Positions 1,490 through 31,566 of a stretch of 44,016 bases of DNA are shown in pieces (position 1 is the first letter of the stretch; every line of letters begins with the position of its first letter). The notes beneath the pieces were generated by a model that saw only the letters and a list, made by a program, of their open reading frames with translations, ran no database searches and was not told where the DNA came from. A program made the position numbers and the translations under genes. Source of the stretch: an uncultured Clostridia bacterium (lineage in GTDB: Bacteria; Bacillota; Clostridia; Christensenellales; UBA1242); assembly GCA_944383915.1 (NCBI GenBank), contig CALWRJ010000020.1, positions 1-44,016 of the forward strand, in the 5' to 3' direction.

Positions 1490-4400
1490 ATGCAAAAAAG
1501 AAAATTTAGTAATATCTCATTACTAACCTTATTAAGCCTTACTATAATTCTTTTAGTAAGTTTATTTGGTTTTACTTTTTTGATTAAATCTAAAAATGCG
1601 AATGCAGTAGTCACACCTACAATTTATATACAAAAAGTATTTTTACCTGACGCGATGGCTGATGATGATTCGTTTAGCCCTACAGAAATAAGGCATATTC
1701 AAAGTTCTGCTGTCGATATTAGCAATGGTCAATTTGTTATGTTAAACACTTCCCAATCGACTATGGCTGATGATGATAATGTTGAACAAGTCGGCAGAGA
1801 AGCAATATTTATCTATTTTGGTGGGCCATCTGGTTCTAATGGAATTAACTTTACAAATGTTAATATATCATTTAATGGGCAACTTATTCAAGACAACTTT
1901 ATAAGCGAAGGTGAATATGGCGATATGCTAGAAACTATTCTTTATGTTCACGGACTTACGCCTACTGAAGTTGCTGAGGACAATTTAAATGACGATTACA
2001 TAACTCGTTACGAAACAGGCTCGACTAGCGAAGTTGTAAATCCTGAAGGACGCTATGATATAAATATTCCGTATATGGATGTTTCAACAGGCGTAAAAGA
2101 TACTTTCACTTTCACATTTTATCTTACGACACAAAAGACATATTCTATCCCCCTAGAAATGCCTTCCTTTAACGATACCGAAAAATTTACTCTTGAAAAT
2201 CAAGAAAACAGTGTATTGCATTACTTCAATTTTAACAACTTCTATACTACAATTTATGACGAAAATTTATCGCTCACAACACGCGCAAACAAAGATGAAT
2301 TATATTATCCACAATTATATTACAACCCCGAAAAGTACCAAATTTCATATACTCGCACTCTTTACAACTATGTAGAAACTGTAAACCTTAATTTTACTGC
2401 CCGATATGCAAATAACACTGAATATGGAGAATTAATCGTTACAACTACAACTAATACAGGTTTAAGTAATTCTCGTACATACCGAATTGAAAAGGGCGCG
2501 CAAAATTATACGCTTAGGATACAATTTGATGAAGTTGGTGATTATGTAATAAATAAAACAGCAAGGCTTAGAACGGGCGACCCACAAAACAACAATGGTA
2601 TTGCTGACTATGCCCTAGCCTCTGGCGAAGTTATTTCATCAAACGAACAATTGTTAAAGAGCGAACAATTAATTATAAATGGTTACACAGCAAAATATGC
2701 TGATTCGCGTTCAACTTCTGCTCCTTTATACAATAACACTTATGCATATAGCGCAATGAGTCAAGTAATTTCTACTACTCCAAGTGTTGTTTATGCCCAC
2801 GATTTCTTAACAACAAGCACTGAAACAACTTACATTTCCACCTCTGACCCAACACCAATAGAAAGTGTTTATACAGCTGATTATAGTTTCTTAAATACAA
2901 ATACAAGCGAAAATAATAGCGTAATAACTGGTACTAACTTAACAACAAATGATGTTAATGTTGCTGGTGTTAGAGAAAATATTTTCCAAGACAAAAGCAA
3001 TGGTGGTGTATTTAATTTAAATTCACAAAAAGTTATCCATGCTAGCACTAATATGCCTCCTGTCCTATTTGAATTTTACGGAAATCTTTTAGCTACAAAT
3101 TCAAGTTGGTATGCTTATCGTGATTCTCTTGGCAATATCACCATTTCTAATTATACAAGAAATTTACAATTTCAAAATGCTGGTACTTATATCGTTTACT
3201 TAACATACGAAAATTTAGTATATGAATCAGGGAATGCAAATAACGGTAGAACTTATCAATATGCGCACCAAATATTCTATTTTGAAATTACTAACACTAC
3301 TCCAAAAATAGAAATAAACGCTAAATCTACCCCTGACACCCCTGGTATTATGGACGAAACTGCAACAGTTATAAATATGGGAGATTATACTAATAAATAT
3401 GTCTATGCATCATGGCAAGCAGTAGGTCCTTTTGATGCAGAAATAACTGCTAGATACTATGTTTACGATTATAATAACAATTTAATAAGACAGGGCTCTA
3501 TTGATGCTCTTGTTTACCAACAAAATAGTGTTGGAGATTATTTCGTTGTTTCCTCTAATACACCGACTATGCTTTATGGTGGTCAAATTTCTTTGAATGG
3601 TCGTGCTGGTATTGATGGAAATTATTACATTCAAGTTTTCCGCGAGGACTCACCCGAGGCTTTTGTAAACCATCACTTTATAATAGATACTGCTCCTATT
3701 AGCGGGATAAGCGCGTTAGAAATTGAAGGTAGACACATTGCAGCAGATGAAAATGGAAATGCGGTTGTAATTTCAAGCTTGACTGATAGCCCAAGTGACT
3801 TTAATTTAACAACAAATAGCGCGTTCGCTTGGACTTGGAATGATAAAGAAAGCGGTGCTGAAATTACTGCTAAATATGTTTATTCTAGTATTCAAACTGA
3901 CAGCAACTTTTCTCTAACTTCTGACTATATCACAACAATGCAAGGAATGGCGGAATCAAAACAGAATGTATTAATGCCAACAAATGCGACTTTTGGTGGA
4001 TTTACGCCAGCAATAGATTATCGAAAAGTTGATGCAAGCAATGTTTTTGCCGAACTTCCTACATCTCAAATTATTTCTAATCCTCAATTTGCGGTATTAT
4101 TACTTACAGATGCGGCAGGAAATACGGCTATATTTGTAACAATTTTAGATGATACAGAAACTCAAATATTACAAGATCCTGCGCAATCGTCATATGTGAA
4201 TATTATTACAGATGATACTAACTTCTATTGGGGTACTCATAAATCTATATCTATAAATCAATTATCTAGCTCTACTAATGAGATAAACGACATTCTAGAC
4301 TTTTTAGGAAACGATTTTAACTGGACAATCTCAAATCAAACATTTACTTCAAATGATATAGTCAAAAATGCTTTAACAAATGTAATAAGTGCTAACAATA

Positions 4401-7400
4401 TAATAACACCTATTGATAATGTAGAATTCTCAATATCTGATGGAACTACAGAAAGTGTTACCCCCTACATTGACACAGACGGAACACCAAGAAATTGGTG
4501 GGCAACTATATCAGTAAACCAAAAACCAAATTCTACCACAACATACCAAACTCAAATTCGTCCAGAAGGCAATCAAGATAGCCTAAACCACGGTATTCAT
4601 GAATTTGAAAATGATAGTTCTCTTACATACACAATTAGAGTTTACGATACGAACGGGAATTATAATGGAATATTTAATGTAGATGTAAACCTTGACCGCT
4701 CACAAGGTACTCTTAGAAGTTATGATTCGTTTGAACCGAGCATTGATGGACCTGTTTTAGTTGAAAGTGTGCGCACGGAAGATGAAGTTACTGATAGTCA
4801 AGTTGTGCCTAATAATTATTCAACTAACCGCCGTTATGTAACATTTAGTTGGACAGTCGCTGGCGAGTATTTTGCAATTGATAGTATCGAACTTCGTTTC
4901 TATCCCTTCTCATATAATAAAGATAACGAAAATTATCCATATTCAAATACATATACTTCTGTAATGTTATTTGACGGAAGTTATGACGACATATTTACTG
5001 TACTTGGTAGCGGAGTTGTCGAGGATACACATTATCAAACAAATATTTTAATGCCACTTGATTATGTTCAAGAATATAGTGGCGCAGCAAGTTCTGCTGG
5101 TATGTATCAAATTATTCGTACCTACACTTCAAGTTTTGACGAAAATTCAGCCGAGGCTGGCGGAGATACTCTAGAAAGGACTTACACATTCTATGTAGAC
5201 CGCAACCCTATTATCCCTACAGACACAACTAATTATGGAAGTGATATTTCTATTGGTTTTGGTTATAATGTAGGCGATTATGTTGATTATCCTGATTATG
5301 GCGGTGTAACATTTAATCAATTTAGTCGCACATCAAATAATGATGTATTTAGAGATGCTCTAACATACGATTCCACAAATGACCCCGCTCGCGAACCACA
5401 AAATATCGTAATTGACAGTAACATTTTGCCTGCAAGTATAAATATGAGCACTTGGAAAGATGAATCAGGTAATAGCATTTATGACAAATACTATTTTCCA
5501 CAAGATGAAAGTTTGTCTGTTGAAGAAGCGCAAAATGCTTTAAATACTATTTTTGAATCTTACGCAAATAGTTCGCGAGTACAAGTAGTAGTGCAAACAT
5601 TTATTCGTTCTAATACTGGTATTTATAATTTCTATAGTCAGCGTTTCTATTCAAATGTATACAGAAATAATGCAAGTGGGGCTTATGATTGCTATTCACT
5701 TGATGATTTAAAATATGCGTTTACTAATGTTGGAAAATATCGTGTAATTTTGTTTGATTTAGCAAATGTAACTGGTATTATGAATGGAGATGCGACATAT
5801 TTTGAAAGTCTTACTTATGGTAACGATTTAATCGACCTATCCCCTAACTATACTATATTTAATTTTGAACTTACAGGTATAAGCCCGAGTTTCAATTTCC
5901 AAAGTGGTGACTCGTCATTTACTAATGTCGAAGTTAGTCAATCGATAACAAATGACGAGAAAGTCCGTATACAATGGTCTGACCCAACGGATACATATGA
6001 AGCACAACTTGCATTTAATGATGTCCTAGTATATAAGACTATTTATACCAAAAATAATCCCAAAATTGATGCAGATGGCAACGAAGGAATAGGTACATCT
6101 ACAAGTTTTGAATTCTCTAATCCAATTTTATTAACTTGCGATGCTGATGAATACGAACAATTACTTGCTGACGATGATGAAATCGAAGGCGTAACATTTA
6201 TATATAGACAAACCCAAGCAGAACTTGATAGTTTATTAAATGAAGCAATTGATTCAACAAATCTACAAGATGCAATATTTTATAAAATGAGATTAAACGG
6301 CGTATATAATTACTACATCTTGCTTCCACGCGCTGAATATGAAAATCAAAATATTTATCAAGATAAATTAGTTGATGTCGAGTATACTGTTAATGTGCAT
6401 TATATCGCATATGATCCTAATGATTATCTCGCTCCTAATATGTCTAATCAAACAATTTACTATGAGACAACTCGTGCTTTATATGTTGATAACACTGCCC
6501 CTTATCAAAATCTAGTAAATTTGATTGAGAATGATGTTTATCTAAATTCTCTTAACACGAGCGGAAATAACTTTACGCAATATCTAATTGATAATATTGA
6601 TAACGATAATGTACGATTTTTAAAATCATATGCTTTCGCAGTATCAAGTTTTACTCTAGACTATTTAAATGATTACGAATCGGGACTTGAATATTATTAT
6701 TTCAAACATGATAGTTACACTGGTGATTATTTGCAACAAACTGTTGTAGAAGGTCAACCTGGTTATGATGAAAATGCGGTTAATAAATTCTCGCCTACTA
6801 GTTCAAATTATCTAACCGCAGTATATCGTGGCGGAGTAAACAATGCACAAGGTACTACACTAACAGAACCTGGTTATTATGATATTATTGAACAAGATAC
6901 AGCAGGAAATATGCGTGTATACACTATATTTGTTACTGGTGGAGACCGCACAATGCATGCAAGCATTAATGATGATGTAATCGACTTTTACACCACAAAC
7001 GATGGCACTCTTGTTTACTACAATAATCAAGAATATTATCCAGGTACTAACGATTTAATAGAATTTAACAGCGATAGTTTTGTTATGGATAGCATAGAAA
7101 GCAGTGACCTTTGGACTACATTTACTATTCGTAATTTAATGGGACAACAAGAAAGAGAAACATACTATTATGCACCAGACAACACTTTGGTAAATTTACC
7201 AACATTTAGCGGAAACACAATTAGTGATATTGATATAATAATTGAAAATATCAACACATTTATTCGTGAAACTGCTCTCGCCTACTCCAACTCACAAGGA
7301 TGTAGAATTGTACTTACAATTAATGATAGATTAAATCGTGATAATGATATCGTTATTTATATAAACACGCCTGGTGCTATGATTATAGGAAATGAAGATG

Positions 7401-9844
7401 CTTTCTTAAATCTAATTACCGTAAATCAAGATAATACTTTTACTATTAGGCTTCCAGATACAAGTAACACGCCTTCAACTTGGTTTGAAGCATTTAGAGT
7501 ATACCGTGATGGAAGTTTGCAATCATACGATTCATTATTAAATCCACTTCCAAAGTCAGCAAATGATATAGACCAAGATTCAGTAACAAATGGTTATACA
7601 TTTAGACTTACAAATAATGTTATTTATCAGTTTGAATTTGTAGATAACTTTGGTAGAACTTCTCGTTATTCATATCCAACTGATACAAGTATCATTAGAG
7701 AGTTAACTTATACAGGCGGAACACTTGATTATGCTTATAATAACGAATTATATACATTTACATCAAATGATGTAGTGTTTAGATACCAATCAAGTTCATT
7801 ACGAATCAACCTAAGTATTACTGACCTTTATACAGGAGTTGTGCTTTATACAAACACAAATCAAGATGGTACAGTTAGTGAATTGCCTACTGACTCACAA
7901 TATTTCACACTTACATTAGACGGTTTAACTCTAGGAATAACCAATTTAAGATTTATAGCGACTCAAGGAATTAATTATATCGTTAATATTGCAGTTGATA
8001 ATTACACTGATACAGCAACAGAATATGAGTTTGTTTTGTATACACACTTCCCTACAGTTTCTGTTACCGATACAGCAGGCTCACCTTTAGTAAACGATGT
8101 AACTTCTCGCCCGGTTATGATTTCTTGGGCTGATACATCAGCACTATTTAATCCTTATGTAACACTCGTTTATCCAAATGGAAGTAGCCAAACTATCACT
8201 TCCCCTACAACCGTTACGGAGGAAGGTGTATATAGCGTTTGCTTATATAATTCCATGGGTCAATATTTAAATGGAACTCAAGTATTTACAATTAGGTCTT
8301 ATGAAGTTACGATTTATGGTGTTTATCAACTTGATTCCCAAGGTAATTTAACACAACTTACCGCTCACTCTGTTCCTTATAATTACTATACAAACACAAC
8401 TGCAGGTGTAATTACGATGCCACAGTATTTCTATCTAAGTTCTGATACCAACTGGGATAGAAATATTGAAATAGTATATAATGAGGATAAAGGATTAAAT
8501 TATAGAATTATAGATGAGTTTGGTAATACAAGAATTTATAATGTATATGGTTCTACATCTCATGTGATAAGCACATATTTTGCGGTTACTCGCATACCTA
8601 GCGCAAATATTTCCTCTGCTACAAGCTTCCGTATAAATGGCGAAGCACCAACCTCAAATTCGAGAAATATTTATAGGAGACTTACAGACACTGAAAACGC
8701 TACAGCAACTCTAACATGGGAAACCACCTACTATGATAGCAGTATTACTGAAGCGGGCGTAACAAATACCTATGCAGAATTTTACACTCTAGAATTATGG
8801 TATAATAATGTGTTTGTTGGTACGTTTACAAATGGAAACATACTTTTAACACAATCAGGCATTTACACTATTCGAATTTATGATGCTGTTGGACAAAATC
8901 AATATTTTGGCGCAAATTATACCGAGTTTACATTAAACTTACTTAATGAAGTTGTTTATTATGTAAACAATCTTGCTCCAATACAATATGCAACATTTTC
9001 AAGTGATGTAGATTTATATATTCCAATGACTTTCTCTGGCGATTTAAGTCAATATGACTCGCTGGAAGTTACAATAATGCGCAATAACGCAGAATACACA
9101 TTATCTGGCAATAACGGGCATTACATTTTTACTGAACCTGGAGTATATACAGTTACAATGCGCGGTTCGATTAGATCAGTGGTTGGTACAAATTCCGCAG
9201 ATTTGGTTTCAACTTATCAGTTTACCGTACTATCTCCTAACGAAGCGCTAACAAGTTATGAATTTACTGCTATGACAGGTTATGAAATAATTTCTGTAAT
9301 TCGCTCAGGACAAGATATAACAAATGAAGTTAGAGGTTCGGCAAATAGAATTTATTCTGTTTACATCGACCAAGAGAACTTTGGTGTTGGGCGCTACACA
9401 ATTACTGTTAGATATGCAGGTACGGGCTATAATCCTAGTCAAGACTATACATTCGATTTTTGGATAAATAACGAAGTACCGAGTATAAATAGTTCGCGTG
9501 ATTGGGGCTCTTCTAGTACTTCTGGCTTTACTATAACTATTAACCCTGCAAGTATTTACGAACGCGTTGGAGACTGCTACCTTGTAATAAATGGCGAAAT
9601 TGTATATACAATAAATAGTGAAACTGGAACAAATATTGATCCTCAAAACTTTAACTATAACGATTCTGGAGTGTATATTGTCCAAATTCAATCAGCAAGC
9701 GGAAATATTCTTTCTAGTCATCGCCTAACAATAAATGTCCCACTAAACACGGCTGCGATAATTTTGATAGTTGTAGCGTGTGTAGTTGTGGTTGGATTAA
9801 TAATTACATTCATTATTATGCGTACACGAATGAAAGTTCGTTAG
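1490..9844 (+). CDS. Giant secreted surface protein (2784 aa) with Ig-like repeats and C-terminal membrane anchor
   Basis: The N-terminus is a signal peptide: basic residues, a hydrophobic stretch (about residues 11-32) and an ANA-V cleavage site near residue 39. The C-terminus has one membrane helix (about 2753-2777) followed by RTRMKVR, so the protein should stand outside the cell with a short cytoplasmic tail. No LPXTG sorting signal is present. The body is rich in Asn, Thr, Ser, Tyr and Asp. It contains recurring beta-strand units of the form GxYxVxxxxxxG followed by a FTI-like strand, for example near residues 565, 1793, 2244, 2456, 2549 and 2725, as in bacterial Ig-like adhesins. An MADDD pentapeptide occurs twice near the N-terminus. 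No enzyme motif was recognised. An adhesin or stalk role is inferred from architecture only. It ends in TAG and is followed by a strong terminator, so it is probably monocistronic. Confidence 0.85.
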   Translation: MQKRKFSNISLLTLLSLTIILLVSLFGFTFLIKSKNANAVVTPTIYIQKVFLPDAMADDDSFSPTEIRHIQSSAVDISNGQFVMLNTSQSTMADDDNVEQVGREAIFIYFGGPSGSNGINFTNVNISFNGQLIQDNFISEGEYGDMLETILYVHGLTPTEVAEDNLNDDYITRYETGSTSEVVNPEGRYDINIPYMDVSTGVKDTFTFTFYLTTQKTYSIPLEMPSFNDTEKFTLENQENSVLHYFNFNNFYTTIYDENLSLTTRANKDELYYPQLYYNPEKYQISYTRTLYNYVETVNLNFTARYANNTEYGELIVTTTTNTGLSNSRTYRIEKGAQNYTLRIQFDEVGDYVINKTARLRTGDPQNNNGIADYALASGEVISSNEQLLKSEQLIINGYTAKYADSRSTSAPLYNNTYAYSAMSQVISTTPSVVYAHDFLTTSTETTYISTSDPTPIESVYTADYSFLNTNTSENNSVITGTNLTTNDVNVAGVRENIFQDKSNGGVFNLNSQKVIHASTNMPPVLFEFYGNLLATNSSWYAYRDSLGNITISNYTRNLQFQNAGTYIVYLTYENLVYESGNANNGRTYQYAHQIFYFEITNTTPKIEINAKSTPDTPGIMDETATVINMGDYTNKYVYASWQAVGPFDAEITARYYVYDYNNNLIRQGSIDALVYQQNSVGDYFVVSSNTPTMLYGGQISLNGRAGIDGNYYIQVFREDSPEAFVNHHFIIDTAPISGISALEIEGRHIAADENGNAVVISSLTDSPSDFNLTTNSAFAWTWNDKESGAEITAKYVYSSIQTDSNFSLTSDYITTMQGMAESKQNVLMPTNATFGGFTPAIDYRKVDASNVFAELPTSQIISNPQFAVLLLTDAAGNTAIFVTILDDTETQILQDPAQSSYVNIITDDTNFYWGTHKSISINQLSSSTNEINDILDFLGNDFNWTISNQTFTSNDIVKNALTNVISANNIITPIDNVEFSISDGTTESVTPYIDTDGTPRNWWATISVNQKPNSTTTYQTQIRPEGNQDSLNHGIHEFENDSSLTYTIRVYDTNGNYNGIFNVDVNLDRSQGTLRSYDSFEPSIDGPVLVESVRTEDEVTDSQVVPNNYSTNRRYVTFSWTVAGEYFAIDSIELRFYPFSYNKDNENYPYSNTYTSVMLFDGSYDDIFTVLGSGVVEDTHYQTNILMPLDYVQEYSGAASSAGMYQIIRTYTSSFDENSAEAGGDTLERTYTFYVDRNPIIPTDTTNYGSDISIGFGYNVGDYVDYPDYGGVTFNQFSRTSNNDVFRDALTYDSTNDPAREPQNIVIDSNILPASINMSTWKDESGNSIYDKYYFPQDESLSVEEAQNALNTIFESYANSSRVQVVVQTFIRSNTGIYNFYSQRFYSNVYRNNASGAYDCYSLDDLKYAFTNVGKYRVILFDLANVTGIMNGDATYFESLTYGNDLIDLSPNYTIFNFELTGISPSFNFQSGDSSFTNVEVSQSITNDEKVRIQWSDPTDTYEAQLAFNDVLVYKTIYTKNNPKIDADGNEGIGTSTSFEFSNPILLTCDADEYEQLLADDDEIEGVTFIYRQTQAELDSLLNEAIDSTNLQDAIFYKMRLNGVYNYYILLPRAEYENQNIYQDKLVDVEYTVNVHYIAYDPNDYLAPNMSNQTIYYETTRALYVDNTAPYQNLVNLIENDVYLNSLNTSGNNFTQYLIDNIDNDNVRFLKSYAFAVSSFTLDYLNDYESGLEYYYFKHDSYTGDYLQQTVVEGQPGYDENAVNKFSPTSSNYLTAVYRGGVNNAQGTTLTEPGYYDIIEQDTAGNMRVYTIFVTGGDRTMHASINDDVIDFYTTNDGTLVYYNNQEYYPGTNDLIEFNSDSFVMDSIESSDLWTTFTIRNLMGQQERETYYYAPDNTLVNLPTFSGNTISDIDIIIENINTFIRETALAYSNSQGCRIVLTINDRLNRDNDIVIYINTPGAMIIGNEDAFLNLITVNQDNTFTIRLPDTSNTPSTWFEAFRVYRDGSLQSYDSLLNPLPKSANDIDQDSVTNGYTFRLTNNVIYQFEFVDNFGRTSRYSYPTDTSIIRELTYTGGTLDYAYNNELYTFTSNDVVFRYQSSSLRINLSITDLYTGVVLYTNTNQDGTVSELPTDSQYFTLTLDGLTLGITNLRFIATQGINYIVNIAVDNYTDTATEYEFVLYTHFPTVSVTDTAGSPLVNDVTSRPVMISWADTSALFNPYVTLVYPNGSSQTITSPTTVTEEGVYSVCLYNSMGQYLNGTQVFTIRSYEVTIYGVYQLDSQGNLTQLTAHSVPYNYYTNTTAGVITMPQYFYLSSDTNWDRNIEIVYNEDKGLNYRIIDEFGNTRIYNVYGSTSHVISTYFAVTRIPSANISSATSFRINGEAPTSNSRNIYRRLTDTENATATLTWETTYYDSSITEAGVTNTYAEFYTLELWYNNVFVGTFTNGNILLTQSGIYTIRIYDAVGQNQYFGANYTEFTLNLLNEVVYYVNNLAPIQYATFSSDVDLYIPMTFSGDLSQYDSLEVTIMRNNAEYTLSGNNGHYIFTEPGVYTVTMRGSIRSVVGTNSADLVSTYQFTVLSPNEALTSYEFTAMTGYEIISVIRSGQDITNEVRGSANRIYSVYIDQENFGVGRYTITVRYAGTGYNPSQDYTFDFWINNEVPSINSSRDWGSSSTSGFTITINPASIYERVGDCYLVINGEIVYTINSETGTNIDPQNFNYNDSGVYIVQIQSASGNILSSHRLTINVPLNTAAIILIVVACVVVVGLIITFIIMRTRMKVR

Positions 9845-9912: not shown

Positions 9913-9948
9913 ACAAGCACTAGTTAATATACTAGTGCTTGTTTTTTT
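9913..9948 (+). terminator. Intrinsic terminator after the 2784-residue surface protein gene
   Basis: A perfect 12-bp stem ACAAGCACTAGT (9913-9924) / ACTAGTGCTTGT (9931-9942) with a 6-base loop is followed by a run of T to 9948. It lies 68 bases after the stop codon. Confidence 0.93.
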
Positions 9949-10094: not shown

Positions 10095-10123
10095 TTTACT
10101 TTTACAATTTGTTATGCTACAAT
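10095..10123 (+). promoter_or_regulatory. Promoter of the Rho-like gene (extended -10)
   Basis: TGCTACAAT (10115-10123) is an extended -10 element (TGn plus TACAAT). TTTACT (10095-10100), 17 bases upstream, is a weak -35. The start ATG at 10146 is preceded by GAGGAA (10135-10140). The gene-free stretch 9845-10145 holds only the terminator, the 20-bp repeats and this promoter. Confidence 0.6.
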
Positions 10124-10145: not shown

Positions 10146-11369
10146 ATGAACGACAAATACAAAATTAATGTTGAAAAATTAAAAGCGCTAAACTTATATC
10201 AACTTCGTGAAGTAGGCTCTAAAATAGGAGTTCGAAATCCCACACAATTAAAAGCAGATGAATTACGCCAAGCAATAGTTGATGTGGTATCAGGAAAAGT
10301 TAAGCCTTATTTAAAAGTAAAGAGTGGCAGACCGCACAAAAAGGAATTAATTCCGGATACAGAATGGAACAAAGTTATTGGTTATGATTCAGCAGCCTTT
10401 AACGATGACAGCGCACTATTTTCAATAGAAGGAAGCCAATTAAAGCAAGCGCGTGACAATATTTATGTAGGTTTTGTAAAAGAATTAAATAATAAAATGT
10501 ATTTTTTCGCTGATTCTTTTCAAAAAATACGAATGAGCAATTTTGCTGTAGTTTCAGAGACTGCGTTAAATTACAATATGCTTCGTAGCGGTGACAAAGT
10601 AAAATGTGGTATACTTTTTCAAGAAAAAACGCCAATAGTTTTAGAAATTTATGAAATAAATGGAAAAGACCCTTGTGCAATAAGACAAATATTTGACTGT
10701 ATGCAAAACGAATTTACTCAAGAGCAAATTAATTTTTCCCTACCGCAGTTAAATTTTATAAATGAGAATTGTCCATTTTCAATTGGTCAACGAATGATGA
10801 TAACAGGCGAAAATACTTCAGGTCAAACTTATTTATGTAATAGTATCGCAAAAGACTTAGACTCAAAATTTAAAGTAGTATATTTTTCTGTTTGTAAACG
10901 ACCAGAGGAAAAAATTTCTCTATCAAACGATTGCGAATATTATTTTACTTCGTTTGAAGCACTTCCCCGCGATATTAACTTTTATTTTGAAATAATTCCA
11001 GATCGAGTTAGACGACTTTGCGAATTAGGGTGTAATGTAATTTTAATTATTGATGATATAATTACGCTTATGCTTAATTTACGCGATTTACTCATCGAAA
11101 AAAGCAATAATGCTGAAATGTACTACGATGAAATTTTGCAAAATTTTAAAAATTTATTTTCTTATAGTAAAAATACAAAAAACGGAAGTTTAAGTATAAT
11201 ATGTTCTGCCTACACGGACTGTCATATACAAAAATTCAATGAGTATTCAATTATACTTGACAGACTTTGTAACTGCCACATCAAATTAAATAAGATGGAT
11301 TACATAAAAGGTAAAAAAGATTTTTTTGACCCGCAAAATACCTACACAGAAGTTATTAGACAAGTTTAA
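10146..11369 (+). CDS. Degenerate Rho-like protein (transcription termination factor paralogue, probably ATPase-dead)
   Basis: The 407 residues follow the Rho plan. There is a Rho_N-type helical domain (about 8-50, LKALNLYQLREVGSKIGV). A basic GRPHKK insertion, AT-hook-like, lies at about 61-66. An S1-like RNA-binding segment ends in RSGDKVKCGI and then EINGKDP, matching Rho's RTGD and VNxxxPE landmarks. A RecA-like core with IGQRMMITG completes it. Key catalytic positions are altered. The P-loop is G221-ENTSGQT, where Rho has PPKAGKT, so both lysines are lost. Rho's DERPEE is CKRPEE (250-255), so the catalytic Glu is Lys. The Walker B Asp is kept (ILIIDD, D303), as is GSLSIICSAYTD, which matches Rho's GSLTIIATALID. 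The end is short of canonical Rho. ATP-driven translocation is therefore unlikely. It may bind RNA or poison or modulate true Rho; this is inference. It has its own promoter and faces the giant lipoprotein gene across a shared terminator. Confidence 0.82.
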   Translation: MNDKYKINVEKLKALNLYQLREVGSKIGVRNPTQLKADELRQAIVDVVSGKVKPYLKVKSGRPHKKELIPDTEWNKVIGYDSAAFNDDSALFSIEGSQLKQARDNIYVGFVKELNNKMYFFADSFQKIRMSNFAVVSETALNYNMLRSGDKVKCGILFQEKTPIVLEIYEINGKDPCAIRQIFDCMQNEFTQEQINFSLPQLNFINENCPFSIGQRMMITGENTSGQTYLCNSIAKDLDSKFKVVYFSVCKRPEEKISLSNDCEYYFTSFEALPRDINFYFEIIPDRVRRLCELGCNVILIIDDIITLMLNLRDLLIEKSNNAEMYYDEILQNFKNLFSYSKNTKNGSLSIICSAYTDCHIQKFNEYSIILDRLCNCHIKLNKMDYIKGKKDFFDPQNTYTEVIRQV

Positions 11370-11450: not shown

Positions 11451-14400
11451 TTAGTAGTCAAATATGTCTTCTGAAACAATACTTGCACCTACTCTTTCTT
11501 GCTTGTCAATTGGAGTTACATCAGTTAGGTATAAAGTATAAGCATTCATTTCTGCCCCACCTCTATTGCGAGACCATGCAGATGTTATCCAATCAGAATA
11601 GCAACCTGCTCCAATTGCTGTTGTTCTTAATTCGGTAATTGAAATTACAGCACAAGCATCAGTTGGCTCAAGTCTAGTAGGATCATTTGTGTAAGGTCCT
11701 AACCATACAGCAAGCCAACTTGTAGCATCAAATGCGCCTTCTAATGTGTTTCCTATCATACCCATATTTTCGTAATTTCCAGCGCCTGAATAATTAGTAT
11801 CTTGACTGCTTGGAGTAAATACAAATGCATAAGTTCTATAAGTATTAAACTTTAAAGCATTTCCAATTAGTCCACCTACATAAGAGCCCGCAGAAGCAAC
11901 ATTTATACGCGCCCCATAGACATAGCAGTTTTCTATACTATGGCCGTTTCCAACTTCGGCATTAGCAAGGCCTACTAAGCCACCCACTGAAGTATTACGA
12001 TAATTGTTATTAGTTGTATTTTGAGTTACATTAATAGAACTCATCGAGAAACTATTATGAATTGTTGCTGTACTTGTACTATCTTGACTTGTGCTTGTTC
12101 CAAGTAAGCCAACCAATCCACCGATATAACCATCAAAGGCGTTTATATCAAGTTCTGCCCAGCTGTTTTCAATAGCACCGCCATTTTGTCCAATTAGTCC
12201 ACCAATGCGAGAATTTGGTAATGAATTTAAAGTAATTTCTCCTAGTCCTTGTACTGCACAATTTGAAATTGTACCGCTATTAGTGCCAGCAAGTCCACCA
12301 AAATAAATTTGTGCTGTGCGCGAAGTTATGCCAGATTCAATAAGAACAATTCCAAGTCTCCTTACTGTTGTTCTTGATGATATTTGTCTAAATAGACTAG
12401 CATAAATTGTTCCACTGCTTGTTGTTGGCTCATACAAACTATTAACTAATATAATGTTGCCGTTACCATTAAATTCATTTGCTTGAATTGTGCCACTTGA
12501 AGTACTCGAAATTGTTGAACTTGATACAATAACATCACGAATTAGTGTAAAGTACCTGCCTGTTGCGTTAGATTGTGTAAGTCTAACTAACTCTGCTCCT
12601 TCTCGAATTTTATATGGATTACTTTGAGTACCATCACCTGTATTAAAGTCAATATAAATATTATTTAGTACAGGATAGCCATAGTTTTGAGTATTATCCC
12701 CTATAGACCAAATGAAATCAACAAAATTGTTAGATTCATTGTTTATAATACTGTTAATTTGAGAAGCACTCATCATTTCACTAGTTGTTAACGCAATGTT
12801 ATAATAATTATTTGATTGTTCTAGATTAATATTTCCACTTACATCACTATTTACAACTATTCCAATATTCAAGCCATTAAATTCACCAAAAGCAAAACCA
12901 ATATGAGTGGTATTTCTGTTGAATACTGCAATATTGCTATTTGCGAAACTTGCCGAAGCATAACTATTTTCAACCGAACCAGCAAATCCACCAACATAAG
13001 AATTATTATTTGAGTTATTTACAAATATTCTACCTTCGCTAATAGAATTTGATAGAATAGCGTTAGTCATATCGCCCGCAATACCGCCTAGATTTATATT
13101 TCCACCATTTGTGTAAATATCGATATTGCTTAAAACCCCTGTTATGCTTCCATTATTTACACCAACTAGCCCACCAAAATTGATTGTGTTGCTACCTGTA
13201 ATATTAATGTAAATGTATGATGTGGCAGAATTTCTTAAACCTGTGAAATTATTTTGATAATTTTGGACAAGATTTGCAAAATCGCTAGCAAGCGCATTTG
13301 CTGTATTTTCTGCTTCACGACCTATTACACTACTGCCATAAATAGCACCATTATTTACGCCAGCAATTCCACCAAAATCAAACGAAGCATTTGCATTAAT
13401 CGTTGTTGCACCAAATTCTACATTAATACCTGAAACAACAACATTTCGCGGTATTTCTGTAAATATTCCCGTAACATTGCTTCCTGATGCGGTTAAATCT
13501 GCAAGCGATATTGTAATGCCATTACCTACTATTTTTCGAGCATTTGCTATTTCAATATTAGGTATTTCTGCTATTGTTATAGTTGAAGTGTTGAAGTAAA
13601 TTACTTTATTAGGCGTTGTTTCATCACCTAACTGACCTTGAAGCATATTGAGATTTTCTACAAATACAGGTACATTTGCGCTTCCTAATTGTAAATCTAA
13701 ATAATCGCCAATAACAGTTGGGTACATAAATGAAATTTGTGTCGTATTTCCATCATCATCTGTCTGCGTTAAATAAGTGAAGTTACTTAAAATATTTGTA
13801 TTATTATTTGTAAAACTTGAAGCATCGAGCATTTCTAGTGCCGTTAAATTTGTTCCAAATAAATCAAGTAAGCCACTTAATTCTGCTGAATAATAACTGT
13901 AAACTACGCGCGCACTAGCATTATCATTTATACCACGAATAGCTCGAATACTTGAATTGTTTGAATTTGTAGGCATATGAGTTTGAATTGATGTAATCGA
14001 TACACAATAACCAACATCGGTATTTGTTACACCAACAATACCACCAGCGTACACTGTCAAAGCATTTTCAGCATCAACAAATATTGTACCATTTGAAAGC
14101 GAGTCATAAACAGATAATTGTGAATTTCCTACAATTCCACCAATTCTCGTATAGCTATCACTAGAAATATGATTTGCAATATTTATACTACCTGTAAACG
14201 CGCTACTTGAAATTCTCAAAATACTATTAGGAGTAGTTAATTCGGTATAAGAACCATTATTTAACCTACCTTGTGTAGCACTACCAATAAGTCCACCAAT
14301 GTATAAATTATTAGTTGCGGTATCTATAGATAAATCTCCACTAGAATGCATCGCTGTTAGTACTAGCCTTGGCTGACCAACAGGCACAACAGTTGCATTA

Positions 14401-17400
14401 GACATATTAAGTCTATTTTGCGCAAAACCGTAGATTCCGCCACCATAAATTGTAGTATTAGTATCAGCCGTATGAGTAATAGACCCTGTGAAGTTTGCTC
14501 CATTTGTTACATATCCACTAAATTGCATTGATGAGTTTGTACCTGTAAATTGTTGATTATTAACTATGCTACCAGCAATACCACCAAGGTAAATTTTACC
14601 ACCAGCCATATTTGAATTTAAATCAATATAACTTTCAACGCTACTTACATTTGTGTTATACAAACTACCTGCGACACCACCTAGGTAAACGCTTTGAGCA
14701 TTAGAAGCATTTTCTCTGTTAGTCGTAATATTGCCATCGACACTAAATGTTACTAATTGAGTAGCACCTTCAGTACGACCTATTACTCCACCTACATACA
14801 TATTTGCCGTATTTCTATGAGCAGTAACCGAAATATTTGATGTAAGACTAGCACCCTCATCTATTGAAACACTTCGAACGCTTAGTAGTCCACTTGTAGT
14901 TCCAAGCAAGCCACCTATGTTTAAAGTATAATTATTGCCTGAATTGTATGAAATACCAATTTGTCCAAATTCTGTGCCGTAAATTGTATTTGATACAGTA
15001 CCACTACCAAACAAAGCACCCATTGAAACTGAGTTGTTTGGACTTACAAAACCGCCTGTTCCGTCAGTGTTTGTGTTAGCAGTTTCAATATTTCCATTCA
15101 CTACAACATTTGTGTATGTACAGTTTTGAGAAGTACCTGTTACAAGGGAAACATTATCAAGATTATTAACTATTGTGTTATTGCCTTCTGTAAACTCAAT
15201 TGAAATGTTTTCAAAACTTGAACCATTGCTTTCACGAGCAAGTAGACCAAAGTTTGTAATTGTGTGATGTGTCATATCAATTGTGAAATCAAAGACAAAA
15301 TCAATATTTATAACTCTAAAACTTTCTGTATAGCCAAATAATGACCAGAATGCTTGAGCCACATTTGTATTTGAAATTGTACCGAAGTTTGTAAAAGTAA
15401 TTGTTGCGGAACGAGTCGTGCTTTGTCCTGAAACTTCAATCGGCACAGCACCCTCTAACCTACCACTTACTACATCGTTACCTTCAACAGCTGAGTACAA
15501 GCCATTTTGTAAAATATGAGTGTACCAATCATTTCCTGTTATAGTTAAATCTGTTACGATTCGTCCATAACTATTTGTATTTGTATCTGTTAAGAAGTTA
15601 AAGAAGTCTTCTACAGAATCAATTTCAGAAACTGTCGCAGAGTAATTTGCTTTAAGTATTGGGAATCTTTGTGATACGCGAGACGAATCAAGCGTCCAAA
15701 CGGTATCACTGAAATCAGCAAACGGGTCATTTATAGTACTTGTAGCACAAGTTATAAAGTCGGTTGCGCGAACAGATAAAATTGCTTGTTTATTGCCTAT
15801 TGTATCAAGAGAATTACCTGCAATGCTACTTACTGCCCTTATAGATTGTGCAGGTGTGCCTAGACTATATTCTCCTGACACTTCCCTACCACTTATGAAT
15901 GGAGCAACTGAATCAGTACCACTCATACTGTATCCAACATAACCAACTACGCTACCAAAGTATGCGTCCTCGCTATTAATTTTACTAATTAAAGTATTAT
16001 CACTTGAATCGTAATTGTTAACGGCAACGACAAGGACATCAGTATAATTTGCATATATTGGAGCGCCGACAATCATACCAACAGCACCGCCTAATATAGT
16101 TCCGCCATTAATTGCGCCTGTAGTGTAAACTTGGTACATTGTGGCACTAAATTTCAATTCTCCTGCTACTTGAATATTTCCGCCTACATAACTATAATTA
16201 AACATTTCGTCAATTGGCTCGTATTCATAGATATAACTATCACCTAGTGATAAGTTTCGTAAATAATTTAATGTAGTATCACTGCTCGTACTTGCAAAAC
16301 TATCTGGAGAATTTATTGCCATACCAACTAGCCCACCAACAATGTATGCTTGACCTGAGTATACAGCAACACGCGAATAACTATATTCAATAGCTCCAGC
16401 AATATTTAGTCCAACTAAGCCACCAACCGCTGTTGATGTTTCGGTATTTTCAAATAACTGTGTATAACCAATATAATTTCTAGCATTATCTGTTGAATTT
16501 ATACTGCTATCTAAAGTCATTTGCTCTTGCAAAGGAATTCCTACAAATGATGAAATAATGTGTCCTCGATTTTCTCCAACTAAACCGCCTGCAAAGTTAG
16601 AACCGCGAATCCTTGGTGTATAATTATTTGAAGTATCAACGATAAAGTTTAGACCTTTCGCTTCAGAGTCTTGACTAAGTAAACCAACTATTCCACCAGC
16701 GATTTCGCCATAAATATCAGTATTACCTGAAACTTGCAAGTTTTGAACACGAGAATTATTTTCTGCATCCTCTTCGTAACTTAAATCTATTACACCAACA
16801 AGTCCGCCAGCATATGAATAATCAGCATAATGAGCGTTTTGTGCGCTATTGTAGTAAATATATTGCCCAGACGAAAGTGTCGCACTGATTGAGTTTACTG
16901 AAATACTACCTGTTATATTTCTAACTTCACTATTTCCGTAAATAAATCCAGCCAATGCTCCTGTCATATTTAAACCAGTAATTGATGTAGTCGTTGTAGT
17001 ACCAGAGATATTAATATTTTCTATATAAGAATCTGCTATACTTCCAGCAAGCACACCCATATGTCTAGCGCGAGTGGTAATTTCACCATCTACAACTAAG
17101 TTTAAATTTGTTACTACAGCATCTTCTAAACTGTTAAATACACCAAAATCATTTATTGAAGTTGTAACAGTACTTGTTTGACGATAACTTAAATTACTCA
17201 AATTGTAGCCATTACCAAGCAGTTTGCCTTTAAATAATGTTTCTGTCGCAGTTGAATGCATTGATGAGCCAAAATCTATATCCGCCCCCAAAGCAACATA
17301 CAAATCTCTGTTATTTCCAAATACATATCTAGCGCCACCACTTGTGTAGTTTGGATTACTTTCCATAAATTCTGAACGAATTAATCCACTTGTATCTGAA

Positions 17401-20400
17401 TAGTTGAAAATATTTTGCCAATCTTCAAGACTTGCTATTAGAATAGGATTTACATCAGAACCACGGCGACAAGAAGCATCGTAAGTGTAGTCTGTAGTAC
17501 GATGTGAAAGGTAAACTTTATCAGCAAATCTTAACTGTGGTCCAAGATATAATCTATTCATATCCATATACCAAGTGCTATATTCATTACCTGAAATTGC
17601 AAAGCCTTCAAACGCAGTCCCTGTAGCATTTCCCCACTCATTTGCGGAAATTGCAGTCGCTGGGTCACTTCCATCTGTATAGATATTATCATTGCTATAA
17701 TAGAATGAATTTTCTATGCTTGCTGTTTCATCATTTTGAATATTACCTTCAGCATCAACACCGACAAATATACCATTTATTAAGCCCGAACTATTAATCT
17801 TACTCATAGAATAACTGTATTTTATGCTACCTGAGCCTGTGTTTTCATAGACAAAGCCACCCATAGCATTAGAACTTGATAACGGTAAATTCGTATAACT
17901 ATTTGTAATACTTCCAGCATTTGAATGAACAAGACCACCGATTGTACCATATGCAATTATCCCACCAAGTTCCGCCTGTGCGTTCTCACCTAATTGACCA
18001 ATTGCGTAACTCGATTCAATTCGTCCAACATTTGTTTGTTCTGCAACTAACCCACCTGTACGAGAACCATTGCGGTTAGTTGAGGTATAAATAGACATAC
18101 TGTAGTTTACAACTGTACCATTTGCAAAGTAACTATTTGAGATAACTCCTGTATTTTGTCCAACTAGTCCACCAACATTACCTGAAGCAAATATATTTAA
18201 GCCTTGCAAAGCATAAGTTCTATTAATTGTATCATATCCCAAAACATTCTCGGTATCTATCCTACCAACGCGACTATTTGTAATATAACCGTTATTTTGT
18301 CCAACTAGTCCGCCAATATATGTTGTAACTTGTCTTGATGACGAACTTAAATCAGTCATAATGAATGTCGAAGCAAGTGTCTTGTAACTTGGATCAGCAT
18401 CATTTAAAATTCTATTAAATACAGTAGTTGCAAATGAGAAGTCTGAATTGTTACTCGTAGGACGATTTCCGTCTGGTGAATTGTATATAGTGCGCCACGC
18501 TTCCTTGCTTTGTGTGACCACAACATCACAGTTATAAATTGTTCCACCATCATTTATGCCTGCGATAAAACCAAAATTAACAGTAGATGCATTTTGTAAA
18601 TTAACAAAAATATTGTATGAAACATCTATAATTAGATTTTTAAGAACTGTACCTTCTTGAAGAGTACTAAATAGTCCATAATTTGCTGTATCACTTGTGT
18701 TTTGAGCAAAACTACGAATAGTAATTGTATATCCATTACCATCCAGTGACGCAATGGCTGTGTCAATAGGAGTCCAATTATCAAGTACGATATTAGTTGT
18801 AAGCATATAATCAACGCCAGCCGTCATACTACGGAATTTTTCAACAGAATCAATTATATCAGGAGCATCGTCCGAAGTGTTATTAATTATATCAACGCTA
18901 AAATCTTGCTCAAATAATTTTTGATACGATGTTAAAATATTTTCTGGAGCAACATTATTTAACTCATTATTAAGCATAAATTCATAAATATTAAGTGCAA
19001 CATTGTAAACATAATTACCTGTAAAACTCAATCTAAATGGCAAGCCTGTAACAAGTGTTTTACCTTGAATTAGGTAATAAGATTGCCCTTCTGTCATTGT
19101 TGTATAACTTATTATAAAGTCAGGATAAGTCAGTGCTGATTGTACCGCCGAATAACCATTTCCATCATTATAATACCAAACACCACCTTGTCCATCGCCT
19201 AATTCATTGACAATACTTAGTTTAGCGTTTGCTTTTGCGTGAATTTCATCAAGCGCTTGATTGAATTGTGATATATCACTACCACCAACATAATATTGAT
19301 AGTCTGTTAACGATGGTTCTATTAGTGTCCAATTTGCTTGTAGAATTGTATGAGTGCGAATACTTGCATTAAAAGAACCGTCTTCAGCGCCTTCAGTATA
19401 AACGCTTTGTACTGCAAAATCAACAATATATATTGTATATTGTAATACTAACGGATTTAATCTACCACCTGTAGCAGTTGTTGATTCAATTGTTACAGTT
19501 ACGGTTATTTCACCATTAGGTGGTGTAGCCCCAATTCCTACATAGAAAGGTAAATCTACGCTAACAATTTCACGAGCGCCAACTCCATATGATGTGCGAA
19601 TATTTCTATCAAATGTACTAAATTGAATGCCTGTTTGGTCGCTCCCATAACTTGCACTTAAAGTTAGTGTACTATTAAATAATTCACCATTTAAATGGAA
19701 ATTAGCTACCGTTCCTTTTGCAATCGCATCACCGTTAATAGAATCAAGCGTTAATGTTGCGTTAGGAGCAAAAGTCGTAATAAGAGTTGTATAAACTGGT
19801 TGGAATACATAATTACTTTCTCCTTCTCTCATAGCGACAGCGCTTATAGTAAATTGCACACCTTCTACTAGATTTGAGCCAACTAAAGTCGAAACAAATA
19901 TTACACCATTAAAGTATGCATTTCCACTAGCATCATAACCTGTAATTTTATTTACGATTAGAGCGCCGTTTGTATCATATCTGGCTTCAATGCGTCTATA
20001 GTTCCCATTTTGTAGAACTAATTGTTGCATTTGTATACTTTGATTTTGGCTTGTAGTACTATTTAATAATAAATAATCAAAATATGAAAATTCGTAGGTA
20101 ACTTCGACTCTCAAAACGCCTTGTGTGCCTGGTGAAATTAGATTACTTGCAACTTCACCATTATCCATTGACGAAGTCCCATAAGTAAAGTGCGCTAAAT
20201 CAATTCTGGAAATTGGTGAAGGCGTGAATGTAATTGTGAAATCATAGTTATCATATAAACCACTTTCATCACTTACATCAATACTAATTTCATAAGTAAC
20301 ATTTGAAGTTATATTTTTAATGCTATCATCTAGTTCTAGTAAGTAGTTTTGCGTTACGCTTTGCGCACCTTCAACTCTATCTTTAACAGTTAGGACTTCA

Positions 20401-23400
20401 CTATAATCATCAAGCACTACATTATCGCGTGTTACTTGAATATTTGAAATAATTACATTTTCTGGATTATCTGAAATTACATTAAGCACGAGATTGTGTT
20501 GTTCCCAACTCTCTGCTATCGCGCTTGTAGAATTAAAACCTGCTTCAATAATACCATAGTAAACACTCACGAAAAAGTTTTTAGGTGTTAGATAATTTTC
20601 AAGGCTATAATTAATTTTTGAACCTGCAAATTCAAGCACGAAATATGGACAAGCAATCATTTCAAGCCCGTTTGGATATATATCAGTAGTAGCAACTAAG
20701 CCCGCTAGTAAGTTAGGTTGTCCATACGGAACATAAACACTTGTTCCACTATAATCATAACCGCTAAACCCAAAATAACTTGTATCCGATGTTGTGTATC
20801 TTATACCAAACGAATCATTGTAGGCATTTTGTCTAGTAAATGATTGTACAAGTAATTCCCCGCTACCTTGTTTAATAGACAACGAATTTGCGCCTTCTAG
20901 TGTAATCGAACTGTCTTGGTCATCTAATATATCAAAACTAGAGAATCCGCCTAAAATGTTTATTGTAACAGTAAATGAGGCGCTAACATCTAGTAAAGAT
21001 TGAAATGTTATATTGACAACACCAGTATTTCTAAATATGATATAAGCATCAATTAAGTTTAAATTATCTTGAACAACTTCAGCAATTAAGTTGTTTGATG
21101 AAGTAACAGACAAACTCCAACTTGCAGGATCTAGAAGTGGAAGCACTTCGATATCAAATAAACCATTAGGAGTCGAAGTTTCACTTGTGTTGTGAATTGC
21201 AATTCGTCTTTCCCCATCTACTAAATCAATATTTTCAAGTACTACAACACTTCCTAAATCGTTGTAGTTAAAGTATGTAGGAAGCAAGTCGCCATCTTGT
21301 TGAAGTGTTGTAGGAGTAACGCTAATGTTATTAATTGCTTGATTGTATAACCAACCACGGTCATAGTCATAAAGAAGTGGTAAATCACCATTTACGCCTT
21401 GCATTGTATTTGAATCGTAAGCAACCCAAACTTGAGTACCACTAGCATCACCAAAACCCCAACCTATGTAAGCGCTATTTCCAAAACCGTTGCTACCAGC
21501 AACCATATCGTCATCAGAAACACCAACTTCGGTAATATTATCTCTATCAGGTATTTCTGCTGTAGTGTCAGCAAGATAATAAGTATCAACAACATTGCCA
21601 CCAGATGTGTTTGTACCAATTAAATTGCGGTAAGTTTGATTGTCAATAGTATTTGTTATTACAACATGAGCATAGCAGGTACTTACATATTCATTATTAT
21701 TTACACCTTGCACTTGATATACACCTATTAACTCACCTGTTTTTGTTGTATCAGCATTATTGGTGATAATATAACCATTAGAGTAAGCATACTGAAGCCT
21801 TGATTGAGATAAATCAACCCCTTCATAAATTTGCATCTGACCAATAAGTCCGCCACCGACTCCTTCATTAGTTGCATCAATTTGAACACAGTTAGAAGCA
21901 AATGAGTTTGTAATTACACTATTTAAAGCGTAACCAATAAGTCCGCCAACATAATTTTTACCAATTACATCACCGTTGAAAGTACCAGAATCTAGTGCTG
22001 TAAATTCTTGGCTTATATATCCCATTGAATATGAGTAAGTAATATTTCCATTTACGCTATATCCAATCAAACCGCCAACATATCTATTACCATAAGCGAG
22101 TGCTTGATTAACTCCTGATAAAGTTGTATCCTCATAATTTTCAGCACGAGCGAAATTCACAGTACCAGCATTATATCCAACTAGTCCGCCGACATAGTCA
22201 TTACCTTGCGTCTTAACTCCTGCAAGTACTCTATATTCTACATTATCAGCAAAATAACCAATTGTGGCATTGTTATAACCTGTTAAACCACCCACATTGT
22301 TATAATTTGTTGCAGTCACTTGTCCCATAATATTTTGATTGTAGATTGTACCTGCTTGAGTAAGGCCTACCAAGCCACCAACTGCGCTTGCGTCATTATC
22401 TATTGAATCATCGCGAACGGCTGTTAGACGGACACGGCTAGTAACCGAGTCACCACTCTGACCTATTACATTTGTATTTGCAGAGCCATTAAATACACCA
22501 ACAAGTCCACCAAGATATAAGACACTAGCACCTAAATCTGTACGAATAGCAACATTTACATAACTTGCGCTAATCGTTCCGCCAAGTCTACCTGCAATAC
22601 CACCAATGCTTATTTCGTAGTCAGCATCTTCCTTACCATTTACTAAAACATTGCTTGTTAAACTTGAAAAGTTATTAATTCTTACAGCAACATTATTAAT
22701 TTCACCATCTACGACACCAGCAAGAAGTCCAAGATTTATTTCATTAATAGTTGGGTTTGTCGCAGTAATATTTGCTAAATCAAACATTGACCTTTCACTA
22801 AACACAAAGTCAATATTGCTTATATTACCACTTACCCTACCAAACAAACCACCTAAAATTTGAGTTTCATTAGTAACGAAGGTATTGTTTAAATTTATTC
22901 CTAAAATAGAGTTTTTATTTCCATTAGAACTATAATTATATGATTCAATATTACCACTGAAATCAGAACCAAATTCATTTCCTATTGGCAATTCATTTGC
23001 ATAATTTGAAATATCGATAGACTGCATTAAGACATAGTTTTTCGTAAGCGCTTCGCTTGATGAACCTATTGCCATAAACTCTTCGGCTGTGTATATTGAA
23101 TACGGATTTAACTCACCGTCTTCAACAATTACCCAAATATCTACATGATAAATATCATTTAAATCTATATTTTCTCTATTTATGCGGTCAAGTGGATAAA
23201 TTCTAATAACGGCATAACCTGCATTTTGGGCAATTATTCTATTTGGTTGATTTGCATCAAAGCGGACAACTGCATCTTCGATTGCTCCCGTATAAAGTGA
23301 AGTTGCAACTACTGTGCCGTCTACATTTTGCGCTTCGTAAAGAGCAAAACCTATATCACTATTAAAGGCATTATTTGGTAATACTTGAGTATTTATTGTA

Positions 23401-31121: not shown

Positions 31122-31122
31122 T

Positions 31123-31566
31123 ATGCCAAAAACTTTTAAGGGGCGTGTAATCAACGCTGGAGAAATTACAGGTGAAGCGCTTGTTTCACATGTTGGAGTA
31201 AACACATTAGCAACATTCCAAAAAAGTGCATTAAAAGGCGCTAAAGTAATTATCGGTAGTGACCAAAACAACCCCGACATTTATGGTAAAGAAATTACAG
31301 GAAAAATTCTTTGTCTACCGCAAACAATTGGTTCTACAACGGGTGGTATGGTATTGCAAACAGTTTGCTCAATGGGCTCAAACCCAAGTGCTATGTTATT
31401 TAGTGAGGAAATTGATTCTCTTGCTGCAAGTGGAGTTATTTTAGCGAAAATCTGGGAAAATAGTCCAATGATAGCAATCGACAAACTCGGAAAAGAATTT
31501 TTAGATACCGTTAAGACTGGCGATCAGATTACAATACATAACGATGGAACAGTGGAAATAAACTAA
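31123..31566 (+). CDS. Aconitase X, small (swivel) subunit
   Basis: A 147-residue swivel-domain protein (formerly DUF126) that closes over the catalytic subunit's active site. It starts FKGRVINAGEITGEALVSH, typical of the family. It carries the glycine/serine active-site loop IGSTTGGMVL (S71 is the candidate catalytic serine) and ends with MIAIDKLGKEFLDTV. Separate-gene organisation, one base after the large subunit, is one of the known arrangements; others are fused. Its ribosome-binding site AGGAG lies inside the large-subunit gene. No terminator is visible downstream before the next promoter. Confidence 0.92.
   Translation: MPKTFKGRVINAGEITGEALVSHVGVNTLATFQKSALKGAKVIIGSDQNNPDIYGKEITGKILCLPQTIGSTTGGMVLQTVCSMGSNPSAMLFSEEIDSLAASGVILAKIWENSPMIAIDKLGKEFLDTVKTGDQITIHNDGTVEIN

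Follow-up and report, generated by a model that had tools for sequence, protein, structure and literature searches.

The single Rho-like gene in the genome of an uncultured Clostridia bacterium (GTDB lineage Christensenellales; UBA1242) very probably encodes a Rho that is ATPase-dead and retained under selection, as judged from its sequence and those of its relatives. With a probability of roughly 0.6, this pseudo-Rho is read here as the product of the vertically inherited sole rho of its lineage, which has turned motor-less, is kept by purifying selection and would act as a passive nucleic-acid-binding factor. The passive mechanism itself, in which the N-terminal head would be the nucleic-acid binder, is put forward more tentatively. 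Rho is known as a motor, and the present case suggests that it can be useful without being one. The gene lies in a window of 44,016 nucleotides, i.e., the whole stretch of DNA that was analysed (contig CALWRJ010000020.1 of assembly GCA_944383915.1, forward strand), and has the following features:

10146..11369, + strand: pseudo-Rho gene, the sole Rho match of the genome; ATG start, open over 407 codons (407 aa)
10170..10289, + strand: Rho_N domain (about residues 9-48; Pfam, and family profile against 3l0o residues 5-50), the best-conserved part in the family
10320..10343, + strand: AT-hook-like KSGRPHKK (residues 59-66), with K59, S60, G61, R62 and P63 invariant in nine genus members (alignment)
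10458..10661, + strand: degraded OB-fold region (about residues 105-172; alignments to PDB Rho)
10806..10829, + strand: degenerate P-loop GENTSGQT (residues 221-228), with SGQ invariant in 9/9 genus members (alignment)
10896..10910, + strand: KRPEE replacing ERPEE, with K251 where Rho has its catalytic Glu (Lys in 9/9 genus members; alignment)
11052..11057, + strand: Asp pair D303 D304 of the Walker B region, invariant in the genus (alignment)
11340..11369, + strand: C-terminal end, with E in the Arg-finger column and then the stop; the C-terminal helical domain is absent (alignment)

Homology to Rho and distribution of the gene

The original prediction that the protein is homologous to Rho along its full length was confirmed by several types of profile comparison. 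The NCBIfam model PRK09376 matches pseudo-Rho over residues 8-358, i.e., past the N-terminal domain (E=3.9e-18, 65.4 bits; curated cut-off 315), and TIGR00767 matches it at E=2.3e-12 (46.5 bits; curated equivalog cut-off 509.45); by neither model does it score as a functional Rho. The Pfam ATP-synthase/Rho core reaches 27.7 bits, just below its cut-off of 29.5, and Pfam Rho_N is weak in pseudo-Rho (E=0.14) and was matched by 17 of 20 host-family members at E up to 1. Among PDB Rho chains, E-values are 6.7e-9 for the single sequence, 1.3e-16 to 6.6e-15 for a profile of nine genus members (other ATPases only about 0.008), and 1.2e-50 for a 20-member family profile against the solved Rho 3l0o, Rho_N included. 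With ten canonical Rhos of the host order, hhalign finds an alignment of 236 columns at a probability of 99.5% (E=4.2e-23), and the RecA fold is traceable. Together, these matches make the fold assignment safe by sequence. The Rho_N - OB - RecA order of the Rho family is present end to end, as are the landmarks RSGDKV, EINGKDP, RPEE and GSLSIICSAYTD. An identity as an F1/T3SS-type RecA ATPase was rejected, since the family profile matches Rho best (1.2e-50) and the best chains of that type, SpaL/MxiB, only at E=2.2e-8.

The gene had been taken for a paralogue, which was not borne out. No canonical rho was matched beside it: pseudo-Rho is the one TIGR00767 match of a 1.18 Mb genome that is 96.8% complete, and the Rho cut-off is not reached in any of the 119 sampled genomes of the host family (weak matches, some of them to other RecA-like ATPases, occur in 106). 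Searching with the pseudo-Rho sequence recovered a relative in 92 of these 119 genomes and in 36 of 42 genera, with open frames in nearly all, and the 20-member family profile recovered one in 22 of the other 27 genomes, three of these matches being weak (G023, G105, G113). By either search, relatives are thus present in 114/119 family genomes, a count that includes a few partial matches; seven of the unmatched family genomes were deduced rather than read by name. Within the host genus, the gene occurs in nine of ten genomes (identity to the other eight copies, 38-55%), and the one genome without it has a completeness of 82%. Sources are given for three relatives: water deer colon, sheep rumen, and roe deer rectum.

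Of 248 genomes sampled from the order, 17 belong to the family; among the remaining 231, the Rho cut-off is exceeded in 144. For Clostridia, the figure is 128 of 156 genomes, a sample that includes six from the family. When the family profile was applied to 18 seemingly Rho-less Clostridia genomes outside the order, 13 had no match at all and the other five had only weak RecA-region matches in frames of 438-515 codons, while all four canonical-Rho genomes included in that search were recovered. This looks like outright loss of Rho in those Clostridia rather than a kept pseudo-Rho. Loss of the rho gene in some lineages is described in the available excerpt of PMC13323073. A phage, plasmid or viral origin of pseudo-Rho was rejected: the phage search gave no match, none of 47 pattern stretches found in viral contigs codes for a relative, and the plasmid collection yielded only two weak matches, at identities of 21.6% and 25.4%, with a rho annotation on one of them.

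Dismantled ATPase site and constraint on the N-terminal head

Landmarks were numbered as in E. coli, where Glu211 is the catalytic Glu and R366 the Arg finger, along with Asp265. The claim that the ATPase site is dismantled proved correct. Canonical Rhos of the host order carry APPKAGKT where pseudo-Rho has GENTSGQT, with both P-loop lysines gone; K251 takes the place of the catalytic Glu, and the Walker B Asp D303 is kept. Across the genus, the P-loop Lys column holds Gln in 9/9 members, so the Walker A pattern GK[ST] with two lysines is absent; the Asp265 column holds Asp in 9/9, the Arg-finger column E, D or N in 9/9, and the Q-loop and R-loop columns a basic residue in 0/9. The stop comes three residues beyond the Arg-finger region, and seven canonical Rhos extend 63-79 residues more. 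Judging from the residues lost, pseudo-Rho would be unable to hydrolyse ATP or to translocate on RNA.

The P-loop Lys, Glu211, Asp265, and Arg366 are all kept in 28/28 canonical Rhos of the order, a set drawn from the 30 best-scoring order loci and not an even sample. Among 84 other family members, in the most divergent of which the alignment columns are uncertain, the P-loop Lys is kept in ten, Glu211 in five, Asp265 in 22, and Arg366 in one; a Walker A pattern occurs in six, at the P-loop itself in three. Three of these 84 sequences are shorter than 300 codons (L118, L134, L138) and some are cut at contig ends. Rows were dropped where a stub frame had been chosen (L026, L044, L075; the L026 match also has an in-frame TAG), where they were second copies of loci (L037, L038, L040-L043, L045-L048, with L051 taken as a copy of L050), and where they lay outside the family (L090, L094, L095, L096, L099); L172 and L173 have no ORF of 200 codons, and L163, L169, and L174 are duplicates.

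Constraint, as read from these alignments, is shifted from the motor to the N-terminal head, i.e., to Rho_N and an AT-hook-like GRP at fixed spacing. Mean pairwise identity in canonical Rhos is 51% for Rho_N, 68% for OB, and 82-84% for RecA, versus 45%, 20%, and 16-19% in the other family members and 63%, 30.5%, and 45-58% in the host genus. Rho_N identity exceeds RecA identity in 4080/4093 family pairs versus 2/378 canonical pairs. Where Rho_N identity is 45-60%, RecA identity is 0.80 in 99 canonical pairs versus 0.17 in 1364 family pairs (genus included), and 0.44 in 11 genus pairs. The best-scoring canonical set favours a high RecA figure, and the inversion within the family is independent of that set. 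The OB fold, which is the primary RNA-binding domain in Rho, has a mean identity of 15.6% between the genus and the canonical consensus; of its aromatics, the F64 column holds F in 7/9 genus members and the F62 column is varied. In canonical Rho, it is the C-terminal ATPase half that is the conserved part, according to an excerpt of PMC4167861.

Directly after Rho_N, GRP is found in 87/93 family proteins, at a spacing of 33-34 residues in 83 of the 87; in 75, K/R lies within two residues on both sides. Further along the family proteins, GRP occurs once in 20651 residues, and in the searched N-terminal stretch it is present in 8/28 canonical Rhos and 0/11 intermediates. As a sequence motif, KSGRPHKK has the GRP core and basic flanks that define AT-hooks. 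According to the part of PMC11354804 at hand, AT-hooks attach to the minor groove of AT-rich sequences and are capable of RNA binding too. The Pfam AT_hook model is not among the matches listed for 20 family members (25 of 57 families listed). From these motifs, the head of pseudo-Rho may bind AT-rich DNA and/or RNA, and the RecA remnant may be a structural or oligomerising scaffold. The site of action would probably be transcribed DNA or the elongation complex, where pseudo-Rho could cause pausing or blockage of transcripts, or shield them, with no release.

Shorter forms of the gene also occur. A 222-codon open frame in one genome, which comprises three contigs and has a completeness rating of 100%, covers Rho_N, hook, and OB and nothing else, and no RecA-like continuation was seen by eye in the three frames of its strand. 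Two genomes with a full-length pseudo-Rho each have, in addition, a stand-alone Rho_N-GRP open frame (L302, 141 codons; L303, 117 codons), and the Rho_N-hook module may thus stand alone. Degenerate Rhos are furthermore found in other families of the order (genus g56 of f15; genera g45 and g105 of f4; f32). It is tentatively proposed that in this family of gut Clostridia the only Rho became a transcription or nucleoid factor that binds DNA/RNA through Rho_N and AT-hook, with the dead RecA ring as a scaffold that is sometimes discarded, and that the same motor loss may have begun independently in those other families.

Selection rather than decay had been predicted, and this holds. In the four closest family pairs, dN/dS is 0.10, 0.09, 0.07, and 0.11, with the part after Rho_N constrained too. 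Of the 22 closest family pairs, a finite dS was obtained for 17, and their dN/dS spans 0.07-0.42. Synonymous sites are saturated even in the closest pair of the host genus (pS 0.77, pN 0.18); the dN/dS figures come from other family pairs. The values near 0.1 argue that pseudo-Rho is not decaying, and gene retention agrees with this. The protein nonetheless evolves fast, with 44% mean identity versus 91% for NusG over 28 matched genus pairs (eight genomes; G006, whose NusG was missed by the script, and G005, with no pseudo-Rho match, were left out).

Gene neighbourhood and genome-wide signs

The gene is flanked by two giant surface-type genes, and the following features were found around it:

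10095..10123, + strand: possible extended -10 promoter TTTACT-17-TACAAT with TG, not above shuffles
9913..9942, + strand: terminator-like hairpin and T-run after the upstream surface gene (one found, 0.5 in shuffles)
1490..9844, + strand: giant surface gene of 2784 aa, upstream; homologue near pseudo-rho in 31/102 distinct loci
11451..26492, - strand: giant lipoprotein-like gene of 5013 aa with GLUG motif, downstream, tail to tail; homologue in 8/102 loci

The gene had been credited with a promoter of its own, for which the evidence fell away: the candidate is one of 13 promoter-like sites, and shuffled sequences give 11.3 +/- 4.0. The 2784-aa protein matches no Pfam family at an E-value of 0.01 or below. 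Neighbours were tabulated in 102 distinct family loci, with flanks mostly of 1.5 kb, so that all counts are lower bounds. The commonest counted neighbour is ypeB, upstream on the same strand in at least 37 loci, followed by the homologue of the 2784-aa gene (downstream on the opposite strand in 23 loci, upstream on the same strand in eight), a SPOCS-domain gene upstream in at least 14, spoIIR upstream in at least 13 (one on the other strand), and greA downstream in at least nine. Giant surface genes on both sides are found in eight distinct loci, those of the host genus. These shared neighbourhoods support vertical inheritance of pseudo-rho. The neighbours differ between genera, and in its stated form the suggestion that pseudo-Rho controls the two giant genes finds no support.

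Several other genes of the window were noted. A SpoVT-like gene lies at 32396-33052; with this gene and the ypeB, spoIIR, and SPOCS genes near pseudo-rho, the family genomes of about 1 Mb look sporulation-related. A fragment of a VirD4/CD1115-like conjugation coupling protein occupies the contig edge (1-1188), large and swivel subunits of aconitase X (29847-31566) lie near a BaiCD-like flavoenzyme (26753-29008), and a BspA-type protein with LRR_5 and InlB-like repeats reaches the right edge (42585-44015).

Purine bias has been put forward as a sign of lost Rho surveillance, an idea taken from the accessible part of PMC13323073. Without GC matching, total purine is 0.555 in the family versus 0.530 and wobble purine 0.483 versus 0.516 in canonical relatives that are much richer in GC. 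With GC matched (0.24-0.42) and each genome represented by a single stretch no longer than 20 kb, wobble purine is 0.483 in 20 family stretches. In 11 class genomes with Rho it is 0.539 (p=0.037), in three such genomes of the order 0.532 (p=0.14), and in five class genomes taken as Rho-less 0.479 (p=0.92); from this last set, three of 20 stretches had been dropped because their ORF sequence was too short. For total purine, the comparison of the family with the class genomes that have Rho gives p=0.10. These p-values are uncorrected and come from many comparisons. One stretch with Rho, L278, has a purine fraction of 0.40 at a GC of 0.235, beyond the matched range, perhaps through poor ORF calling. 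Wobble purine thus agrees weakly with lost Rho surveillance and is suggestive only. The idea that genomes without canonical Rho have more intrinsic terminators was rejected, as terminator-like sites are not commoner in the family (49/291 ORF ends) than in canonical-Rho relatives (66/313; p=0.29, mononucleotide shuffles).

Alternative readings and known systems

The main rival to the passive reading is a nucleotide bound in the host genus. Pseudo-Rho could be a nucleotide-binding switch whose RecA remnant binds a nucleotide such as ATP without hydrolysis, forms rings and acts allosterically on RNA polymerase with no translocation, a reading that is possible but rather unlikely. In the same doubtful scenario, K251 at the Glu position might stand in for the lost P-loop Lys, by analogy with kinases that have a relocated lysine. 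The genus pocket is indeed fixed although emptied: S225, G226, Q227, K251, P253, E254, D303, and D304 are invariant in 9/9 members, and six of nine canonical landmark positions are invariant versus 60/407 overall (p=4.8e-4, the nine having been chosen after viewing the alignment). The last figure counts in favour of the preferred reading, under which the conserved pocket of the genus (SGQT, KRPE, DD) may likewise still bind a nucleotide or other ligand without hydrolysis. The stretch from P-loop to Glu, moreover, has a mean identity of 57.5%, close to the 63% of Rho_N and above the 30.5% of OB, so pocket function may matter there as much as the head.

The switch also finds some support in a FastTree tree of 130 sequences, in which the host genus has a support of 1.0 and deep branches are uncertain. 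The sister genus (L013-L015, L020, L023) has Lys at the Glu position, and three of its proteins (L014, L015, L020) retain a Walker A (GEKGSGKS, GPKGSGKT, and GPKKSGKT). The Glu-to-Lys change therefore seems to have come before the host genus lost its P-loop Lys. A swap of the P-loop Lys to the Glu position in a single event is not supported, as both lysines are present in sister-genus proteins, and is retained only as part of the switch. The P-loop change of the host genus looks independent of the erosion elsewhere in the family. What weighs against a switch is that in most other family members the pocket has eroded without pattern and the gene is still kept, that the 222-codon form has no RecA domain, and that the Arg finger and the basic residues of the Q- and R-loops are gone in the genus.

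A relic under relaxed selection, i.e., an ordinary Rho heading for loss with no function left, is improbable. It would account for the fast evolution relative to NusG, for active-site losses that look independent, and for the other Clostridia genomes that seem to lack Rho outright, as do about 8% of bacterial species according to an excerpt of PMC4499133. It does not fit the low dN/dS of the closest pairs, the presence of mostly open frames in 36 of the 42 sampled genera by single-sequence search, or the fixed AT-hook-like motif and its spacing. A still-active, atypical ATPase and terminator is very unlikely: the RecA fold is traceable and some sister-genus members have a Walker A, but all nine genus members have lost the Lys of Walker A together with the catalytic Glu and the Arg finger, and pseudo-Rho has no C-terminal domain. 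The original prediction had named, as a finding against itself, orthologues that are the only Rho in their genomes and keep ATPase activity through other residues; of this, the Rho searches of genome and family found the first part, while the sequences give no indication of the second. Least credible of all is the proposed dominant-negative paralogue or anti-terminator directed against canonical Rho and dedicated to the flanking surface genes, which the lost catalytic residues and the giant genes on both sides in the host genus had made attractive, and which fails because no canonical Rho to poison was found in the 96.8% complete genome or, above the cut-off, in the 119 family genomes, and because the neighbours differ between genera. 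Of the RNA-bound anti-terminator, what stands is the looser notion of a possible passive nucleic-acid-binding factor.

Under the preferred reading of a motor-less Rho kept as a passive binding factor, many genera have kept the rho gene and lost the motor, a natural experiment in which the Rho protein is uncoupled from its ATPase role. The conservation pattern points to Rho_N as the part that is still of use. If true, this would mean a second, motor-independent Rho function that outlives termination, and the graded series from intact through pocket-only and eroded forms to Rho_N with hook and OB, and Rho_N with hook, would make such functions directly testable. In the literature searched, which holds few subscription journals, no description was found of a sole Rho that is retained although ATPase-dead, and nothing that pairs Rho with Christensenellales.

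Compared with Rho as modelled by TIGR00767 and PRK09376, pseudo-Rho shares the domain order, the end-to-end alignment and the status of sole copy; it differs in having no catalytic residues, Arg finger or C-terminal domain, in scoring far below the cut-offs, and in that its constraint lies in Rho_N and not in RecA. The Rho2 'short form' paralogue (NF041509) is likewise Rho-like without being the usual Rho, but this identity was rejected, as pseudo-Rho reaches only 30 bits against a cut-off of 628 and has no canonical Rho beside it. RHON1 of plant chloroplasts resembles pseudo-Rho in using a Rho_N-type domain without the Rho motor; unlike pseudo-Rho, it is not known as a descendant of Rho that retains part of RecA. 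In Mycobacterium tuberculosis Rho, the N-229 part binds RNA without canonical RNA-binding motifs, as an excerpt of PMC4167861 describes; there it is an N-terminal part with a large insertion in an active ATPase, whereas here a short Rho_N head is under constraint. Lastly, pseudo-Rho shares GRP with K/R flanks, as a motif, with AT-hook proteins, and in this it resembles silencers of the H-NS/Lsr2 type, whose AT-hook-like Q/RGR minor-groove motif is described in the available text of PMC4466236; these are different proteins, and the motif in pseudo-Rho could bind RNA.
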